Shown here in pieces: positions 13,340 through 28,304 of a stretch of DNA of 30,137 nt. Every line of letters starts with the position of its first letter. Positions within the stretch are counted from its first letter, which is position 1. Source of the DNA: a virus; IMG/VR virus record IMGVR_UViG_3300049793_000022, positions 1-30,137 of that record; one strand, written 5' to 3'. A program made the position numbers and the translations under genes. Below the pieces are notes generated by a model, which ran no database searches, was not told the origin of the DNA, and saw nothing but the letters and a program-made list of their open reading frames with translations.

Positions 13340-15048
13340 CAGGTTTTGCCCGAGATGTCAGGATCGGGCTCGATGCCCGCCGCAAACGTCCATGTCGTTC
13401 CGGCCGGAATACGCTGTTTGAACCTGATGTAACGGGCTTCACGCCTTAAATTGCAGTAACCCGTTCGCGCATTCATCGCGATTTCAGAACCTGTCGTCGG
13501 CGTTGCCGCTTGCGTTTGCCGCCATGAGACAGAGCCGTAAACCGTTGCCGCATCCGTGATCGGGCGGAACCCGTCAATATAAATTTCATCTCCCGAGGTG
13601 CCCTGCTCTGCGCTTTCAAATGTGGCCTCCAGGTTCGGCCCGGTAAAGAACCCCAACTTGTGAGCACTGTTAAACTGCGCGATCTGCGGCTGCACGGCGG
13701 TTGCGAATGAATCCAGACTGACCGACATTGCATCGATAGAAGATGAAATCGCATCAAGGTTTTCCAGCGTCAGACCACTTTGCGAAATGCCGAGAAGATA
13801 TTCCCCCTTCATTGAAACCTGAAAGAACCTGTCCAGCATTGGATCATAGCCAAGGAATTTGTCGTATAGTCCGATCTGACCAGAGACCGATTTATAAGCC
13901 CAATAAACCCGGCTCGATTGCGGGTCGGCCGCGCCCATGAACAGTTGCAGATTGCCCTTGTCGATATCAATCAGGAACGAACGATCAACACGCTCGCGTC
14001 CGATTTGAACGGGCAACTGTCCTGGTTCGATTTTGTGAAAGCCCTTGCTCGAATAAAAATAGATCGTAGAGCCCGCGCGAATGATCGAGTAAGGCGCATA
14101 AAGCCCCATGTCCTGCGTCATGCGCTCAATCTGGAAGATCAACGCAGAGCCGGGAATATAGGACATTCGCCGAATGGCCTGATCCTGGAAGATCGTTCCG
14201 AACTCCCCACCCGCCACGCCGCGAACAATGCCGCCGTCAGGGAAGTCCTGAAAATCTGAACTGTTAACGCCGCTTGTCCAACTCCCAGACGCGTTGAAGC
14301 TGTTCAACCCTGACCATTGAATGCGATACGGGAAAGACAGTAGACCCGAGAGAACCAGAAACCGGCCGACGTTACTGATGTAAGCTGCTTGCGGAGGAGA
14401 GCCGAGCGAAGCCGAGAACGCGCTGGCAGACGAAAGGTCGAATACCTGCAACACCGCGTTGGCCTGCGTAGCCCAGACAAGATTGCCGGTCTGTGCAAAC
14501 TGCCATTGAGCCGTGGAACTCAGCGTCGCATAAAGCCATGTTACCGAATGCGTCCCGGTTCCGGTTGATGCGGTATTGATCGCCGTGCCGCCCGGAGTTG
14601 CTGATATCGTGAATGTGCCTGATGTCAGAACCGTCTTGACGTAATAGGTGGTTCCTGCCGTGATCGCTGCGGGAAGCGCGCCCCCAGTATTATAGAAGAT
14701 GACAGGATCATTGACAGAGAAGCCATGAGCTACCAGAGAGACGACGCCGGGGCTTGCGCTCGATATCGTAACGGTCGCGGTATTAGAGACCGGCTTCCAT
14801 GTGAAATCGGTATTATTGAGCAGGTATAACCGATCGACCGTGGCCGCGAAGATCGCAACCGACCCATCTGATTTCAGGGCATAGAAGCCGCCGCGACATG
14901 CCGCGGGAAGTCCCGCCGTCAGCGTGGCAAAGTCTGGGAAAGGTCCGTATCCATCCCCTCGGGGCAGCACGTTTAGAATGTTGTGGACGCTTGAGCCTTC
15001 AAAATCCGTGGTGTCCGGCCGCCAGTCAGCCCAAGGAAGCAGCGCCAT
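13339..15048 (-). CDS. Tail nozzle-like structural protein with inserted FCCH-type beta domain
   Basis: 569 residues. It starts MALLPWADWRPDTTDFEGSS followed by the conserved-looking NVLPRGDGYGPFPDF, a common start of large podovirus tail proteins. Aromatic-rich beta repeats (FYALKSDGSVAIFAAT; WQFAQTGNLVWATQANAV; IVRGVAGGEFGTIFQDQ) suggest a beta-propeller-like core comparable to tail nozzle/tubular proteins. Residues about 93-165 form an insertion of the type VSLVAHGFSVNDPVIF / GTTYYVKTVLTSGTFTIS, seen as an independent small beta domain in many phage proteins (FCCH-like). It overlaps the SU10-type adaptor gene upstream (TGATG), consistent with attachment directly below the adaptor ring. Confidence 0.65.
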   Translation of the reverse strand: MALLPWADWRPDTTDFEGSSVHNILNVLPRGDGYGPFPDFATLTAGLPAACRGGFYALKSDGSVAIFAATVDRLYLLNNTDFTWKPVSNTATVTISSASPGVVSLVAHGFSVNDPVIFYNTGGALPAAITAGTTYYVKTVLTSGTFTISATPGGTAINTASTGTGTHSVTWLYATLSSTAQWQFAQTGNLVWATQANAVLQVFDLSSASAFSASLGSPPQAAYISNVGRFLVLSGLLSFPYRIQWSGLNSFNASGSWTSGVNSSDFQDFPDGGIVRGVAGGEFGTIFQDQAIRRMSYIPGSALIFQIERMTQDMGLYAPYSIIRAGSTIYFYSSKGFHKIEPGQLPVQIGRERVDRSFLIDIDKGNLQLFMGAADPQSSRVYWAYKSVSGQIGLYDKFLGYDPMLDRFFQVSMKGEYLLGISQSGLTLENLDAISSSIDAMSVSLDSFATAVQPQIAQFNSAHKLGFFTGPNLEATFESAEQGTSGDEIYIDGFRPITDAATVYGSVSWRQTQAATPTTGSEIAMNARTGYCNLRREARYIRFKQRIPAGTTWTFAAGIEPDPDISGKT

Positions 15049-15653
15049 CAGGGAGTGACGCCAATAACGCGGACGGCCATATTTTGCCGCTCGTTGAAAT
15101 CCAGCATGGCGATTTCTTGGAACACCTCATCGCGGCGCTGTTTCCAGAGCGAAGCAGAGTCAAAGGCCTTTCCCTTGTTGAACGCATTGGCTTCACAAAG
15201 CGAGCCGAACAAATAGGCGTCGGGATGGTTGGTATAGAGCCAGTTTAACGTGCCAGAGACCGCGGCGTTTCTCTGGAAATAATCAAATGTCAGCGCCGTA
15301 TCATCGGAAGGCGCAACGCGAAGGTTTGAACCCTCGATTGTGAATACCAGCGGCGGCGATGCTACCGGGCTATTAAGATAAGTCGCATACATCGTCGGCG
15401 TGACGTAGCTCAACTCCGAAATCGGCGATCCGGTCCACGTCACCCGCCGATAGCCGAGATAATCGCTTGGAACCGTGGCAACCCCAGAAGTCGGGGTTAA
15501 CGTCGCGGTCGTCTCCTGAAGCCGGACCTTGAGCTTGCGAGCCGCTGCGCATTCAAACAGCGTGATGAAGTCTGGAATATATGCCGTCAGGTCATCGCGG
15601 GCCAGCCAGTTCGCAATCTGGGTTTGGAGGTCGGAATCGGTTGCGAACGCCAT
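15048..15653 (-). CDS. Head-to-tail adaptor, SU10-type
   Basis: 201 residues. The N-terminal helices (LQTQIANWLARDDLTAYIPD, FITLFECAAARKLKVRLQE) are followed by the beta segment ATLTPTSGVATVPSDYLGYR and a C-terminal helical part (YTNHPDAYLFGSLCEANAFN). This is the pattern of the adaptor proteins of phage SU10 and T7 gp11-like tail tubular A proteins, which sit on the portal ring. The length is normal for the family. It overlaps both neighbours (TAATG at 15653, TGATG at 15048) and is encoded just before the nozzle-like protein. Confidence 0.75.
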   Translation of the reverse strand: MAFATDSDLQTQIANWLARDDLTAYIPDFITLFECAAARKLKVRLQETTATLTPTSGVATVPSDYLGYRRVTWTGSPISELSYVTPTMYATYLNSPVASPPLVFTIEGSNLRVAPSDDTALTFDYFQRNAAVSGTLNWLYTNHPDAYLFGSLCEANAFNKGKAFDSASLWKQRRDEVFQEIAMLDFNERQNMAVRVIGVTP

Positions 15654-15988
15654 TAGCTACCGAACCCCATCCAGCCCATCACAAGCGACGGTTTGTCAGT
15701 TCTTAGATAACTCCATTCGGGGTCTGCAAGTTTCTTCGCGACAAGCCGATCCATTTCCTCGCCAAGAAGCTTGATGGTGGTATTCCCTCTGGCCTGCTCT
15801 TCGTTAATCCATCGCATCAGGATCACGTTGGGGATTTCCGCAATCTCACGGCCCCAGTCGCTTTTCTGCTCCATGGTGCGGAGCATCTTGTTGCGCTCAA
15901 GAATAGGCTCGCAATCCTGCCGGTGCTCAATCGCTAAATCTTGCCCATTCGAATCGAGGTGAATGATCGTTTCTAGGGCCGCGTTCAT
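15653..15988 (-). CDS. Conserved phage protein, target of an N-terminal duplication
   Basis: 111 residues, soluble, mixed helical: RQDCEPILERNKMLRTMEQK, EIAEIPNVILMRWINEEQAR, ending SYLRTDKPSLVMGWMGFGS. I recall similar proteins beside the adaptor gene in alphaproteobacterial podovirus-like prophages, with no known function. Its residues 5-22 are identical to residues 2-19 of the HNH endonuclease encoded immediately upstream, although the DNA differs at many synonymous sites. The ATG at 15988 overlaps the endonuclease stop (ATGA), so its translation probably depends on ribosomes finishing the endonuclease gene; no Shine-Dalgarno is obvious within that gene's end. Confidence 0.65.
   Translation of the reverse strand: MNAALETIIHLDSNGQDLAIEHRQDCEPILERNKMLRTMEQKSDWGREIAEIPNVILMRWINEEQARGNTTIKLLGEEMDRLVAKKLADPEWSYLRTDKPSLVMGWMGFGS
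15923..15976 (-). repeat. Coding direct repeat, copy in the conserved phage protein gene
   Basis: 54 bp encoding LETIIHLDSNGQDLAIEH. It is repeated at 16459-16512 in the same orientation. The two copies encode exactly the same 18 residues but differ at 14 nucleotides in 11 codons, all synonymous. Confidence 0.9.
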
Positions 15989-16515
15989 GCAGCCCTCGCA
16001 AATTCACCACGGAGTGAGAGAGCGGCTTCATTATAGGAGGAGGAAGCAGCATCTGGCGTGGTGAATAGTCCGAGATGGATTCTGCGGCCTTGATGCTGTA
16101 TGGTGGCAGACCATTTACCTGTCACGCGATGAAACGAAACGCCCTTAAGCCCGCTTTTGTTGTCGGTCCTTAGACCGACATTTGCTTGGTTTTGTGAGGC
16201 TGTTGCTAATCGCAAATTTGCTATTCGGTTATCAGCAATTTTTCCGTTGATATGATCGATATCCTTGTCAGGCCATTCCCCATAAACATAGGCCCATGCC
16301 AATCTATGGGCTCTATATAAGCGCCCATTGATCTGGATCGATATGTAGCCGCGCTTACTTGGGCTGCCTGCCACGCTACCAGCAGGGGCTGCGTTGCTCA
16401 GACATTCCGTCCAAACAAATTCGCCAGTTTCTGGTGAATAGCTAAGCCATTTACGGATATGCTCGATAGCAAGGTCTTGGCCGTTGCTATCGAGATGGAT
16501 GATCGTTTCGAGCAT
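15985..16515 (-). CDS. HNH homing endonuclease with AP2-type DNA-binding domain
   Basis: 176 residues. Residues 2-19 copy the N-terminus of the next gene's product. After a linker (NPSPETGEFVW-like, residues 20-60), residues 67-110 form an HNH nuclease: YRAHRLAWAYVYGEWP with His70, KDIDHINGKIADNRIANLR with His88 and Asn96, and ATASQNQ. Residues 119-168 form an AP2-like three-stranded DNA-binding domain (SGLKGVSFHRVTGKWSATIQ and HLGLFTTPDAASSSYNEAA). HNH-AP2 proteins are free-standing phage homing endonucleases that cut alleles lacking them. The gene begins as TAAATG directly after the upstream stop and has no clear Shine-Dalgarno. Its end overlaps the next start as ATGA. Confidence 0.9.
   Translation of the reverse strand: MLETIIHLDSNGQDLAIEHIRKWLSYSPETGEFVWTECLSNAAPAGSVAGSPSKRGYISIQINGRLYRAHRLAWAYVYGEWPDKDIDHINGKIADNRIANLRLATASQNQANVGLRTDNKSGLKGVSFHRVTGKWSATIQHQGRRIHLGLFTTPDAASSSYNEAALSLRGEFARAA
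16459..16512 (-). repeat. Coding direct repeat, copy in the HNH endonuclease gene
   Basis: Partner of the copy at 15923-15976, lying right after the endonuclease start codon. It encodes the same 18 residues with 14 synonymous base differences out of 54. Similarity stops abruptly after the His codon, where the endonuclease-specific sequence begins. Confidence 0.9.
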
Positions 16516-16749
16516 TTAGGCGGGGATCTTCGCCACGATGGCCTCAACTGCGGCAGCGGCGGCATCGACGGCAGGCTGTTCATCGATCGGCGGCGGAGCC
16601 TGCTTGGCGATAAGGGCATCCACCTTCGCAGACAGGTCGGCGATATCGGCATTCAGCTTGGAAAAGTCAGACATCATTTTCTCCTGGGTTTTAACGAGGT
16701 GAATTAAGAGATGACGGTCGGTTGCGTCATCAATGTGGATATCGAACAC
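16516..16749 (-). CDS. Small coiled-coil phage protein
   Basis: 77 residues if started at the GTG at 16749, which abuts the upstream stop (TAAGTG). A strong AGGAG lies in front of a double ATG at 16677/16674, giving an alternative 53- or 52-residue product (MSDFSKLNADIADLSAKVDA and on). Which start is used is unresolved; the spacing of 6 nt favours 16674. The core forms a short coiled coil, followed by a Pro/Ala-rich acidic tail (APPPIDEQPAVDAAAAAVEA). It has the look of a minor head or fibre-associated protein; function unknown. Confidence 0.55.
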   Translation of the reverse strand: MFDIHIDDATDRHLLIHLVKTQEKMMSDFSKLNADIADLSAKVDALIAKQAPPPIDEQPAVDAAAAAVEAIVAKIPA

Positions 16750-18120: not shown

Positions 18121-18145
18121 AAAAGCCGCCTGATGAAGGACGGCT
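18121..18145 (-). terminator. Putative intrinsic terminator after the capsid-adjacent endonuclease
   Basis: On the minus strand AGCCG-TCC-loop-GG-CGGCT forms a bulged stem (5 bp plus 2 bp) ending in UUU. It overlaps the stop codon of the endonuclease gene (TAG at 18146-18144). Weaker than the UUCG terminator further downstream. Confidence 0.5.
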
Positions 18146-18662
18146 AGGGTTGAGTTCTACGCTTACGGGGACGCTTATTTAGCTTCTGCTCGTCAGCCGT
18201 TGCCCAACGGCAATTCCACGGCGCATAGGGGCCGTCATTGTCATTGCGCTCGATTGAGTATTTCTTGCCAGTTGGGCCTACGGGCCGTTCTCCCATGTCC
18301 GCATAGAAGCGTTCAAAGGACCCGCGCCATTCTTCGCAGACGGTAATTCCACGTCCGCCATACCGCTCGTAATGCGGCTGGTTCTCATTATAGCAGCGAT
18401 TAATCATGCCGCACCAAACCCGATAGAGCGGTGTACCGGACATGCCATGTGTCGTCTTAGTAAGACGGCTAAATTCGAGCCGCAGACATCCGCACGATTT
18501 TGTATTTCCCCGATTTAAATGACTGCCGGGAGTTGTAGTGATTTTCCCGCAGTCGCAGCGGCATCGCCAAAGAGCCTGACCGCTGCCTGATCCATCACGC
18601 TTTAAGACGCGAAGCCTGCCGAACCGAAGTCCCGTTAAATCTCGCTTGAGTGGTCGAGCCAT
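18144..18662 (-). CDS. HNH-like homing endonuclease behind the capsid gene
   Basis: 172 residues, basic. The N-terminal part (DLTGLRFGRLRVLKRDG) and a zinc-ribbon-like set of cysteines (WRCRCDCG near 32-39 and SCGCL near 56-60) are followed by YRVWCGMINRCYNENQPHYE, YGGRGITVCEEW and the C-terminal signature KYSIERNDNDGPYAPWNCRW. This is a well-known phage mobile-gene family, HNH-like although the central His is replaced. The C-terminus is strongly basic (KRPRKRRTQP), fitting DNA binding. It lies 60 nt after the major capsid gene. Its AGGAA and start codon border a stable 11-bp hairpin at 18663-18713, implying controlled translation. Confidence 0.75.
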   Translation of the reverse strand: MARPLKRDLTGLRFGRLRVLKRDGSGSGQALWRCRCDCGKITTTPGSHLNRGNTKSCGCLRLEFSRLTKTTHGMSGTPLYRVWCGMINRCYNENQPHYERYGGRGITVCEEWRGSFERFYADMGERPVGPTGKKYSIERNDNDGPYAPWNCRWATADEQKLNKRPRKRRTQP

Positions 18663-18722: not shown

Positions 18723-19688
18723 TTAAGCTGGTACAGTACAGTCGAAAACTCCGCCCGATGCTTTTTCGTTACGCGAAACTAGCACGTACTCCGACAGCAT
18801 CATGCGACGATCAGAGTCGCCGGTTTTCGCCAGCGGCAGATTGACCATGCTGCGACCGTTCAAATGAGCCTGCGCCCACTTCTCCATTTCCAGCACCAGC
18901 ACGTCACGGGTACGCATGAAGCGGTTCGGGACAATCTTGAGGGTGCCGAAGTCGCTCTCATACGCCGTGACCGAGGCCGTGATCTTCTTGGTGGTGGTTT
19001 CCTCGATCGGCGAAGCGCGGCCGGTGAAGGTCGAGAACGCCTGCTTGTTGCCGCCGCCGAGCATGACAACCGTTGGCTTGCCACCCTGCGTCCAGCACTT
19101 CTGCAAGACGGACTTCAGACGGCCTTCCGTGAACGCAATCTGCGTGCCGTCCGTTCGGGTGCCCGTACCGTCAGCCGCGGAAGGATCGGCAGCGCCGCCC
19201 GCCGTGCCCTTGTCGGTGTTGGTCTTGATCCAGGACAGGACCGAGGCCGAAACACGCGCGGTAGCGTCCGCACCTGCGTTGCGCGCCTGGTTGGAGCCGA
19301 CCATCTGGGATTCAACGTCGGTCTTCAGTTCCAAACCCGCAAGCATCGCCTGGTTGGCGAGTTCGTTCGGGACGCCGGCAGTGGTAACGGCCTGCTGCGA
19401 ACCAGTCACGCGGACGGTCTTGGTCGAGATCTGCGTGTAGTTGCCCCGGCGAACGCGAGGAGTAACAGCCTTGGTGGTGGCGTCGTCGCCTTCAAGCTGG
19501 GCGTTCGACGTGGACGCCGCGGCGAGTTCCTGCGTCTGCCATTCGTGGAAGGTGCCGGTCGCCTTTTCGCGATCAAGGCTGGACACGAACGGGGTATCGG
19601 TCGGAGTGATGCGCCAGACGACATTGGCGAGGTCTTCACGGTTGCCAATCGCTTCGAAGGTGGCAAGGGTATTGCTCGGGAGAGCCAT
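18723..19688 (-). CDS. Major capsid protein, SU10-type (HK97 fold)
   Basis: 321 residues. It starts MALPSNTLATFEAIGNREDL and continues VVWRITPTDTPFVSSLDREK, TFHEWQTQELAAASTSNAQL, VRRGNYTQISTKTVRVTGSQ and the late KIVPNRFMRTRDVLVLEMEK. These are the signature segments of the SU10 major head protein family (DUF5309-like), and the length is normal. AAGGA stands 9 nt before the ATG at 19688. The gene lies directly after the scaffold and forms the shell of the head, presumably with the small beta-rich proteins encoded downstream. Confidence 0.9.
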   Translation of the reverse strand: MALPSNTLATFEAIGNREDLANVVWRITPTDTPFVSSLDREKATGTFHEWQTQELAAASTSNAQLEGDDATTKAVTPRVRRGNYTQISTKTVRVTGSQQAVTTAGVPNELANQAMLAGLELKTDVESQMVGSNQARNAGADATARVSASVLSWIKTNTDKGTAGGAADPSAADGTGTRTDGTQIAFTEGRLKSVLQKCWTQGGKPTVVMLGGGNKQAFSTFTGRASPIEETTTKKITASVTAYESDFGTLKIVPNRFMRTRDVLVLEMEKWAQAHLNGRSMVNLPLAKTGDSDRRMMLSEYVLVSRNEKASGGVFDCTVPA

Positions 19689-26144: not shown

Positions 26145-26220
26145 TGGTTGCAGGGGTGAGGATCGAACTCACGCATACATCGGTTATGAGCCGACGGCCT
26201 TTCCGCTTGGCTACCCTGCG
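26145..26220 (-). tRNA. tRNA-Met (CAT), with a C1/A72 mismatch
   Basis: Reads from 26220 to 26145 and ends with encoded CCA after discriminator A. The acceptor CGCAGGG pairs with CCCTGCA except at the first position (C against A), the feature of bacterial initiator tRNA. U8 A9, D-stem GCC/GGC, loop CTCATAA with anticodon CAT at 26188-26186, and T-arm GTGAG-TTCGATC-CTCAC are all present. The D-stem lacks the initiator-type A11-U24 pair, and the anticodon stem has only two of the three G-C pairs of initiators. The variable loop has 6 nt. It may be an elongator Met, an Ile2 or an initiator-like tRNA. Confidence 0.8.
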
Positions 26221-26229
26221 TCTGATAAT

Positions 26230-26306
26230 TGGTGGCCCACCTAGGATTCGAACCTAGATCGCCCGGTTTCTAAGACCGGCGCCTCTACCAATTGGGCTAG
26301 TGGGCC
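26230..26306 (-). tRNA. tRNA with anticodon TAG (Leu-type), class I body
   Basis: 77 nt including CCA. Acceptor GGCCCAC/GTGGGCC is perfect; D-arm GCC/GGC; anticodon stem CCGGT/ACCGG with loop CTTAGAA and anticodon TAG at 26272-26270; variable loop of 5 nt; T-arm CTAGG-TTCGAAT-CCTAG; discriminator A. The anticodon reads CUA (leucine), yet bacterial leucine tRNAs normally have a long variable arm, which is absent here. Confidence 0.8.
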
Positions 26307-26309
26307 TAT

Positions 26310-26386
26310 TGGTGCGCGCGGTCAGATTCGAACTGACACTTATCGGGGTTTGAAGCCGATGCCTCTGCCTATTGGGCTACGCGCGC
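26310..26386 (-). tRNA. tRNA with probable anticodon CAA (Leu-type), class I body
   Basis: 77 nt including CCA. Acceptor GCGCGCG/CGCGCGC; D-arm GCC/GGC; T-arm GTCAG-TTCGAAT-CTGAC; discriminator A. Standard numbering gives stem TCGGC/CCCGA with a C-C mismatch next to the loop, loop TTCAAAC and anticodon CAA at 26352-26350 (reads UUG). A 9-nt-loop view without the mismatch is possible, so the anticodon is slightly uncertain. The variable arm is short. Confidence 0.75.
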
Positions 26387-27321: not shown

Positions 27322-27852
27322 TCACGCTGTAGCTTTTCTCGCTAGAATATCGGCGAGCTCGCTGCTTATTGCGAGCGGTGGCTTTTCATCCTTACCCTTT
27401 GCCAAGCCCTCTTCCTTTCTATTCTTACTTTGTGAGTAGTCGAGCGGGGCTTGAGGTTTGCTTGGCATTTGGTAAGCAATTGCTTGGCTCGGGACGTGTT
27501 TGGATAGCGCAGCGTTTTCCAGCTTCATTCGACCAAGTGCTGACCTAATGCCACCCTTAAAACCGGCCTGCTTTCGCTTCTCCGATATGGCCTCAGTCTT
27601 ATAAATCTCGGCATCGATGCGCTTGTGCTTCCAGCCTTCGTAAAAGAAGCTCTGCAAGGTCTCCCGGTATTCAGTCCAGACCTTCAGCGGCAGTTTGGTG
27701 ATCTTGGCTAGCTGTTTATCGTCGTCAGGAAGCTCGCCCTTGCGCCAGTAGTGCATCATGAGCAGAAGGTACGCGCCGTGCTGCGTCGTGGTCAGGTGCC
27801 CCGTATCGCCAAGGTAATCGCCAACATAAAGGGGCATCCAGGGTCGGTTCAT
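27322..27852 (-). CDS. DUF1376 (YdaU-like) replication-module protein
   Basis: 176 residues from the ATG at 27852 (MNRPWMPLYVGDYLGDTGHL), which overlaps the HNH stop as ATGA; a longer start at 27900 would run into that gene. The segments TTTQHGAYLLLMMHYWRKGE and LPLKVWTEYRETLQSFFYEG form the DUF1376 winged-helix-like domain that occupies the replication-initiator position in many prophages. The tail is basic and polar. It likely binds DNA or helps load the replicative helicase; no helicase gene is seen in this window. Confidence 0.8.
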   Translation of the reverse strand: MNRPWMPLYVGDYLGDTGHLTTTQHGAYLLLMMHYWRKGELPDDDKQLAKITKLPLKVWTEYRETLQSFFYEGWKHKRIDAEIYKTEAISEKRKQAGFKGGIRSALGRMKLENAALSKHVPSQAIAYQMPSKPQAPLDYSQSKNRKEEGLAKGKDEKPPLAISSELADILARKATA

Positions 27853-28304
27853 TCGTCGTGAACCTTCCGTCCGGCCCAATCGAACTCGATCTCGCCCCAC
27901 AGGACCTTATATTGGCGCCCAGCCTCGCGGCCCCAATCAGGGTCATTTTTCATGAGCCAGCTAAGCTGTTCGAGCTTCCCGCGCTGCTCAGGTGTTGCAT
28001 GGGCGAGAACAGCCCTTTTCCAGTTCATGTGCTGGATAAGTTCGTCAGAAGCCCGAAAGCGCCAGTCAGTCGAATCCTTGTTGCTCTTGCCCATGTTGCA
28101 GGCTTTGCAGAGCACCTGCATATTGGACTCGGCTAGCTCTAATTCAGGATGGAGAGAGCGCGGCTTGATATGGTCAACCTGGATTGGGTTGTCAGCCGTG
28201 GCGCGACATCCGCACAGTCGGCAGCTACCGCCTGCCTTCTGCAGGACGCGGTAACGCAAATCGAGCCACTTCGGGCTTTCGTAAAAACCGTCGCTAGCAC
28301 TCAT
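27849..28304 (-). CDS. HNH endonuclease with zinc-binding cysteines
   Basis: 151 residues. YESPKWLDLRYRVLQKAGGS precedes a CxxC (SCRLCG, residues 27-32), the HNH core IQVDHIKPRSLHPELELAES (Asp-His at 44-45) and NMQVLCKACNMGKSNKD with the second CxxC at 66-69. All elements of a classic HNH nuclease are present. The remaining 70 residues are helical and may contact DNA. The gene is tightly overlapped with the GapR-like gene upstream and the DUF1376 gene downstream, so it looks like an established operon member rather than a recent insertion. A role in packaging, recombination or host DNA breakdown is possible. Confidence 0.85.
   Translation of the reverse strand: MSASDGFYESPKWLDLRYRVLQKAGGSCRLCGCRATADNPIQVDHIKPRSLHPELELAESNMQVLCKACNMGKSNKDSTDWRFRASDELIQHMNWKRAVLAHATPEQRGKLEQLSWLMKNDPDWGREAGRQYKVLWGEIEFDWAGRKVHDE

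Follow-up and report, generated by a model that had tools for sequence, protein, structure and literature searches.

How a free-standing endonuclease gene can enter an important gene without destroying it is an open question, and it is raised in readable form by a locus in the virus record IMGVR_UViG_3300049793_000022. The 30,137 nucleotides analysed here (hereafter the window) carry genes that resemble those of Bradyrhizobium prophages, among them an endonuclease gene that begins with the start of the gene following it. One gene start is thus present twice, once at the head of the endonuclease and once on the gene itself. Which of the two copies belongs to the resident gene, and how did the other come to lie beside it?

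Organisation of the locus

Every gene of this region lies on the minus strand, in the order major capsid gene, a second HNH gene, several small genes, a 77-aa gene, the endonuclease gene, a 111-aa gene (the target gene) and an adaptor gene. The features referred to below are as follows.

18723-19688, minus: SU10-type major capsid gene
18144-18662, minus: second endonuclease-like gene (HNH, phrog_374), immediately after the major capsid gene
16516-16749, minus: 77-aa gene upstream of the endonuclease; its TAA immediately precedes the ATG of copy 1
15985-16515, minus: HNH_3-AP2 homing-type endonuclease ORF, 176 aa, in frame with copy 1 (PF13392, phrog_99)
16459-16512, minus: copy 1, endonuclease codons 2-19, read as the stranded native start of the target gene from its codons and its 40-bp run with L054
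16458/16459, minus: putative junction of native remnant and endonuclease core, approximate to about 5 codons
16186-16317, minus: HNH_3 nuclease domain, aa 67-110 (domain profile)
16006-16152, minus: AP2 DNA-binding domain, aa 122-170 (E 4e-5, 24.2 bits, under the cutoff of 33.3)
15993-15997, minus: GAGGG, possible ribosome-binding site in the conserved GEFAR end, 4 nt 5' of the new start codon
15985-15988, minus: ATGA overlap of endonuclease stop and target-gene start codon (same geometry in L117)
15923-15976, minus: copy 2, target-gene codons 5-22, read as the imported replacement start (same peptide, 14 synonymous differences)
15653-15988, minus: target gene, 111 aa, phrog_3982, between the major capsid gene region and the adaptor gene
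15048-15653, minus: SU10-type adaptor gene, downstream; its order with the target gene is conserved
27849-28304, minus: third HNH gene (PF01844)

An earlier note, made from the sequence alone, had marked positions 15923-16515, an interval that takes in the endonuclease and copy 2 but does not cover the whole of the neighbouring gene. No flanking gene-end copies were found at the two other HNH genes of the window (18144-18662 and 27849-28304). Three tRNA genes are clustered at 26148-26386 on the minus strand.

One peptide encoded twice

The endonuclease protein begins MLETIIHLDSNGQDLAIEHIRKWLSYSPETG and the 111-aa protein begins MNAALETIIHLDSNGQDLAIEHRQDCEP, which confirms the earlier observation that the endonuclease, after its initial methionine, repeats residues 5-22 of the next gene without a change (18 residues). 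Both copies translate to LETIIHLDSNGQDLAIEH. A codon comparison likewise bore out that the 54-bp copies differ at 14 nucleotides in 11 of the 18 codons and that every difference is synonymous; random synonymous recoding of this stretch is expected to give 12.2 +/- 2.5 differences. All 22 pairs with at least 7 synonymous differences here (copy 2 excluded) also have at least 3 amino-acid differences, so that the combination seen between the copies, 14 synonymous and 0 amino-acid differences, has no counterpart among the comparable pairs. The 18-residue peptide has no match in the window other than itself and its copy (E about 3e-6). Of 26,102 mismatched endonuclease flank pairs, about 0.36% attain its score of 92, and genuine homologues are among these. 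Judged by these comparisons, the match between endonuclease and target gene is not due to chance. The similarity ends at endonuclease codon 19/20, as the earlier note had reported, but the boundary is less sharp than it had supposed, because the residues LAIEH also align with the first helix of the endonuclease family (LTxEx) and blur the exact fusion point by about 5 codons.

An intact endonuclease with a borrowed start

The HNH_3 domain scores 68.8 bits against a cutoff of 24.8 (PF13392, E 3e-19) and the protein matches phrog_99 (E 5e-67), while the AP2-like domain that follows scores under its curated cutoff (24.2 vs 33.3 bits). The residues D87, H88, N96 and N100, invariant in an alignment of 33 sequences, are all kept, as are the near-invariant H70, R71 and N90. 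By these profile matches and motif residues, the endonuclease is a member of the HNH_3-AP2 family (PF13392/phrog_99). Its core is intact and confidently modelled in the predicted structure (pLDDT >90); roughly the first 14 residues lie outside this confident core, and residues 1-6 have pLDDT <50. Most family members start a few residues before an 'LTxExL+xLLxY' helix. In the window endonuclease an extra 13-14 residues precede this helix, with the target-derived LAIEH filling the LTxEx positions, and among 84 listed N-terminal stretches none of the other endonucleases has this N-terminus; the earlier note had named its occurrence in other endonucleases as something that would count against its reading. 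From copy 1 to the HNH domain the reading frame has no further ATG, and the endonuclease therefore depends on the ATG of copy 1. We found no close protein relative of the endonuclease in IMG/VR.

At the other end of the gene, the last endonuclease codons, GCGAGGGCTGC-ATGA, could provide the ribosome-binding site and the overlapping start codon of the target gene. Distant as the two proteins are, the 3' ends of the window endonuclease (15985-16515) and of the endonuclease at L261:2474-3019 are nearly identical in DNA (GAATTTGCGAGGGC..ATGA), and it may be that the conserved GEFAR codons also act as a ribosome-binding site for the gene that follows.

The target gene and its uninterrupted relatives

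The target protein belongs to phrog_3982, a family with no assigned function. In its predicted structure (mean pLDDT 80) the copied segment forms an N-terminal beta-hairpin, and a fold search against solved structures returned nothing below E 0.6. Relatives of the target gene were identified at 48 IMG/VR loci, at 7 GTDB contig loci, in 33 of 272 Bradyrhizobium genomes and in the GenBank phage ppBeUSDA76-2. Those inspected have the same neighbours, with the capsid side upstream and the adaptor gene directly downstream, and many begin directly with an M-L/E-D/E-T-x-x-H-L-D-S-N-G-Q-D-like peptide, the same start as that of copy 1. No endonuclease was found inside the gene in any of these relatives, which leaves about 80 target genes without an endonuclease and one, that of the window, with it. 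The earlier note had anticipated that an endonuclease-free relative with both starts would tell against its reading; none was found, and the starts seen were all single. No endonuclease-free relative above about 69% identity was present in the 272 Bradyrhizobium genomes, and a search for an empty site by way of the upstream 77-aa gene gave one partial phage match only. In L054, a prophage with an uninterrupted target gene, an endonuclease 47% identical to that of the window lies just after the adaptor gene (L054:3970-4464).

Copy 1 looks native

At the 11 codons that differ between the copies, copy 1 has the majority codon of the target-gene family at 8 and copy 2 at 1. Measured as codon identity to the family, copy 1 reaches 0.61 and copy 2 0.38 (0.379), compared with a mean of 0.54 (sd 0.09) for the relatives. 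Copy 2 is the fourth lowest of 47, within the range of the relatives at its low edge since three of them are lower, and the second half of the window target gene is also off-consensus; copy 2 could for these reasons be the resident sequence. A test based on draws from the family (P=0/20,000 for copy 2) was dropped as too strict after a leave-one-out comparison. The codon usage of copy 2 falls at the 39th percentile of 18-codon windows of this phage, and being ordinary for the phage it gives no argument for foreignness.

The uninterrupted gene of L054 (Bradyrhizobium sp. CSA112) shares an exact run of 40 bp with copy 1, whereas the longest run among 701 comparable pairs is 24 bp. The run corresponds to L054 codons 9-21, and outside it the L054 gene is only 63% identical to the window gene. 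As the island is flanked by differences, it reflects an exchanged patch rather than kinship of the whole gene, and we read it as a sign of a recent short exchange at the presumed cut site. Copy 2 matches its best relative at 38 of 54 nucleotides, and a DNA pattern scan of IMG/VR for its donor was without result. The alignment with uninterrupted genes that the earlier note had proposed thus gave a match for one of the copies, copy 1, but none for the other. Taken together, the family codons, the run shared with L054 and the position directly after the upstream stop codon make copy 1 look native, if indirectly, since a close endonuclease-free relative of this phage was not found. The earlier idea that alleles of two lineages stand side by side fits best, but with the roles reversed: it is the copy fused to the endonuclease that behaves as the native one, and the copy on the working gene that behaves as the imported one.

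Duplicated gene ends at related endonuclease loci

We compared the upstream and downstream flanks of 174 distinct endonucleases of this family by peptide similarity. Scores of at least 90 were reached by 5 loci against 0.63 expected from the 26,102 mismatched pairings, a modest excess. The five were the window, L266, L261, L108 and one tandem endonuclease pair; L117 fell under the threshold and was recognised by its geometry. The high-scoring flank pairs of L259 and L177 are tandem endonuclease paralogues and were rejected as scars. Beyond the window, four of the 174 loci therefore carry a duplicated end of the adjacent gene. At L261, the first 42 codons of a lysin-like gene (peptidoglycan-binding domain) are present twice; at L117, a 14-codon gene start is repeated with the same ATGA overlap as in the window, and the target gene of this locus has no relatives in phage records. 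At L266, the 3' end of a terminase gene is repeated over 34 codons with 23 synonymous nucleotide and 5 amino-acid differences, and at L108, the repeat is a 24-codon stretch close to the 3' end of the gene. The duplication is thus at the 3' (C-terminal) end in L266 and L108 and at the 5' end in the window, L261 and L117. No scars were seen in six further phage regions.

Two of these loci have endonuclease-free relatives close enough for the two copies to be told apart. The upstream flank and remnant of L261 are mostly 92-98% identical to L365, and the remnant stops a few bases at most from codon 42; the working gene is 58-72% identical to L365 over its first ~540 bp and then 83-95% identical to its end. 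The terminase of L266 is about 97% identical to that of L285 up to about nt 215 and about 60% thereafter, and on the far side of the endonuclease the native terminase end resumes and runs into the next gene through the native TAATG junction. This remnant matches L285 at 90/102 and L291 at 90/102 positions, against 67/102 and 62/102 for the end attached to the working gene. In both L261 and L266, these alignments show the stranded remnant to be native and the end on the working gene to be foreign. The similar scars suggest that these endonucleases spread by putting a foreign version in place of one end of the target gene. Two different endonucleases follow the terminase gene in L266 and L293 and share a 23-bp identical leader (TTGCGGATAGGGTAGCTCCTGAA; L266:337-376 and just past the terminase stop of L293), although no native remnant was seen in L293.

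A proposed route of entry and its alternatives

We consider it probable that the window records a one-sided homing event, in which the incoming endonuclease brought along a diverged version of the target-gene end that it presumably cannot cut, and left the native start stranded. A free-standing HNH-AP2 endonuclease from a related phage would have cut the native gene near codons 19-23. Homologous repair on the gene side, as seen in L261 and L266, would then have imported the endonuclease and the donor's diverged gene end, at least codons 5-22 and possibly to about codon 30, and by this import the target gene would have kept its protein and changed its DNA. The native 5' end, for which the donor had no matching sequence, would have been joined non-homologously to the 5' end of the endonuclease, a join that may have been made in frame with the help of the likeness of '..ATCGAGCATATCC..' in the gene to the start of the first helix of the endonuclease. 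As the reading frames stand, the putatively stranded copy 1 supplies the endonuclease with its start codon and first 18 residues, and the target gene restarts at the ATGA that overlaps the endonuclease stop. The synonymous divergence of copy 2 may make the allele resistant to cutting and may remove a long direct repeat that could delete the endonuclease; both kinds of protection are plausible. For free-standing endonucleases in general, it is assumed that a diverged imported end prevents recutting (PMC12724721; PMC2988022). The divergence of copy 2 may have been selected or simply inherited from a distant donor; the fungal cases described below have the same appearance. The identity of the peptide would reflect the need of the target protein for its N-terminal beta-hairpin and not a function in the endonuclease.

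The same arrangement could have arisen in the reverse direction, with copy 2 and the gene body resident and the endonuclease, landing just upstream, bringing copy 1 from an L054-like lineage. Copy 2 is about as distant from the nearest relatives as the rest of the gene is (nucleotide identity 0.61-0.70 vs 0.63-0.70), and the run that copy 1 shares with L054 exceeds that of every comparable pair; both points speak for this direction. We nevertheless regard it as unlikely: both readable cases, L261 and L266, have a native remnant and a foreign end on the gene, and copy 1 sits directly after the upstream stop as native starts do, so that an insertion exactly there would have to be a coincidence. 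What weight it keeps is owed to the search for a close relative of the window phage with an empty site, which found none. A local duplication at insertion, followed by selection on copy 2 against self-cutting and recombinational deletion, appears more improbable still. It would account for the exclusively synonymous differences, the number of which is close to that from random recoding and makes copy 2 look saturated. However, copy 1, which as an appendage of the endonuclease would be expected to drift, has an unchanged peptide and 40 bp identical to L054, so little time can have passed, and L261 and L266 have long foreign-looking tracts with sharp edges rather than local drift.

The remaining alternatives seek the explanation in the peptide or in splicing. 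An interaction or targeting hairpin that functions in both proteins, as the earlier note had suggested, would explain an exact peptide identity in spite of DNA divergence, but the peptide occurs in 0 of the 32 other aligned endonucleases, and the residues that form a beta-hairpin in the model of the neighbour lie outside the confident core in that of the endonuclease. The suggestion is thus unsupported and we consider it very improbable. Introns are known to house HNH_3 endonucleases in phages such as ICP1 (PMC10448857), and the copies could in principle be exon and intron parts around an endonuclease carried by a self-splicing intron or intein. Group I and group II introns were absent from Rfam scans of the window and the analogous loci, relaxed scans of the window, L266 and L261 included. 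All of the sequence between the copies is taken up by the endonuclease ORF, so that an intron core would have nowhere to lie, and this ORF closes with a stop codon and is therefore not an intein. With the scans empty and no non-ORF space, we rejected this scarcely tenable explanation.

It is conceivable, if on balance doubtful, that phage HNH-AP2 endonucleases move as two-part cassettes of a nuclease and a synonymously diverged, cut-resistant end of the target gene, at 5' and 3' ends alike, with selection at that end keeping the protein and changing the DNA, and with some of them taking over the native start codon of the target. If true, such cassettes would constitute a natural cut-and-restore system that is widespread in phages.

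Implications and comparison with known systems

To the question of how free-standing endonuclease genes enter important genes, these phage loci offer a readable answer: a foreign version replaces the end of the gene, and the native end stays behind as a scar. Such scars mark approximate cut sites, give the direction from donor to recipient and offer a sequence-only route to the targets of endonucleases. A further consequence is that conserved phage genes such as those for lysin and terminase can have foreign terminal segments, a point to bear in mind for phylogenies and gene calls.

Duplicated C-termini in fungal mitochondria and co-conversion by free-standing endonucleases of T4 are already known. 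In the open-access papers searched we found no account of phage endonucleases flanked by a remnant and a replacement of a gene end, and as a variant, the 5' form in which the native start codon is taken over appears to be new.

The closest precedent is provided by the mobile ORFs of fungal mitochondria (LAGLIDADG/GIY-YIG) with their duplicated C-termini, described in Allomyces macrogynus atp6 and in atp6, atp9, cox2 and nad3 of Glomus sp. (PMC3630166). There, as at the phage loci, the endonuclease gene lies between two copies of one gene end, and the direction is the same as that read in L261 and L266: the stranded copy has native-like DNA, while the attached copy is foreign in DNA and nearly or fully identical in protein (PMC3630166). 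Native ends have 91-98% and inserted ends 64-81% DNA identity to a close relative, and the inserted ends are 94-100% identical in protein, reaching 100% in three of four genes (PMC3630166). The fungal cases are organellar, involve the 3' end and belong to other nuclease families (PMC3630166), whereas the window is from a phage, with an HNH-AP2 endonuclease at a 5' end. Unlike the fungal ORFs, the window has its apparent native remnant fused in frame as the start of the endonuclease.

Intronless homing and marker exclusion by the Seg and Mob endonucleases of T4 are alike in that a free-standing endonuclease co-converts neighbouring diverged donor sequence (PMC2988022). Cleavage in T4 occurs far from the endonuclease gene, at sites hundreds to thousands of bp away, and the passages of that review consulted here contain no description that we could find of a stranded gene-end remnant or an in-frame fusion (PMC2988022). 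The insertions of mobA in T4 topoisomerase 39/60 and mobE in Aeh1 nrdA likewise place a free-standing endonuclease in an essential phage gene, and in T4 an added sequence may protect against self-cutting (PMC2988022, PMC5009743). These insertions are described there as leaving the gene split in two coding parts (PMC2988022, PMC5009743), while the target gene of the window is whole again because it carries a second start. Among the phage HNH_3-AP2 endonucleases (PF13392 plus AP2, phrog_99), the window protein is alike in domain order, in its motif residues and in sequence (about 47% identity); it differs from them in the 13-14 additional N-terminal residues that it appears to have taken from its target gene.
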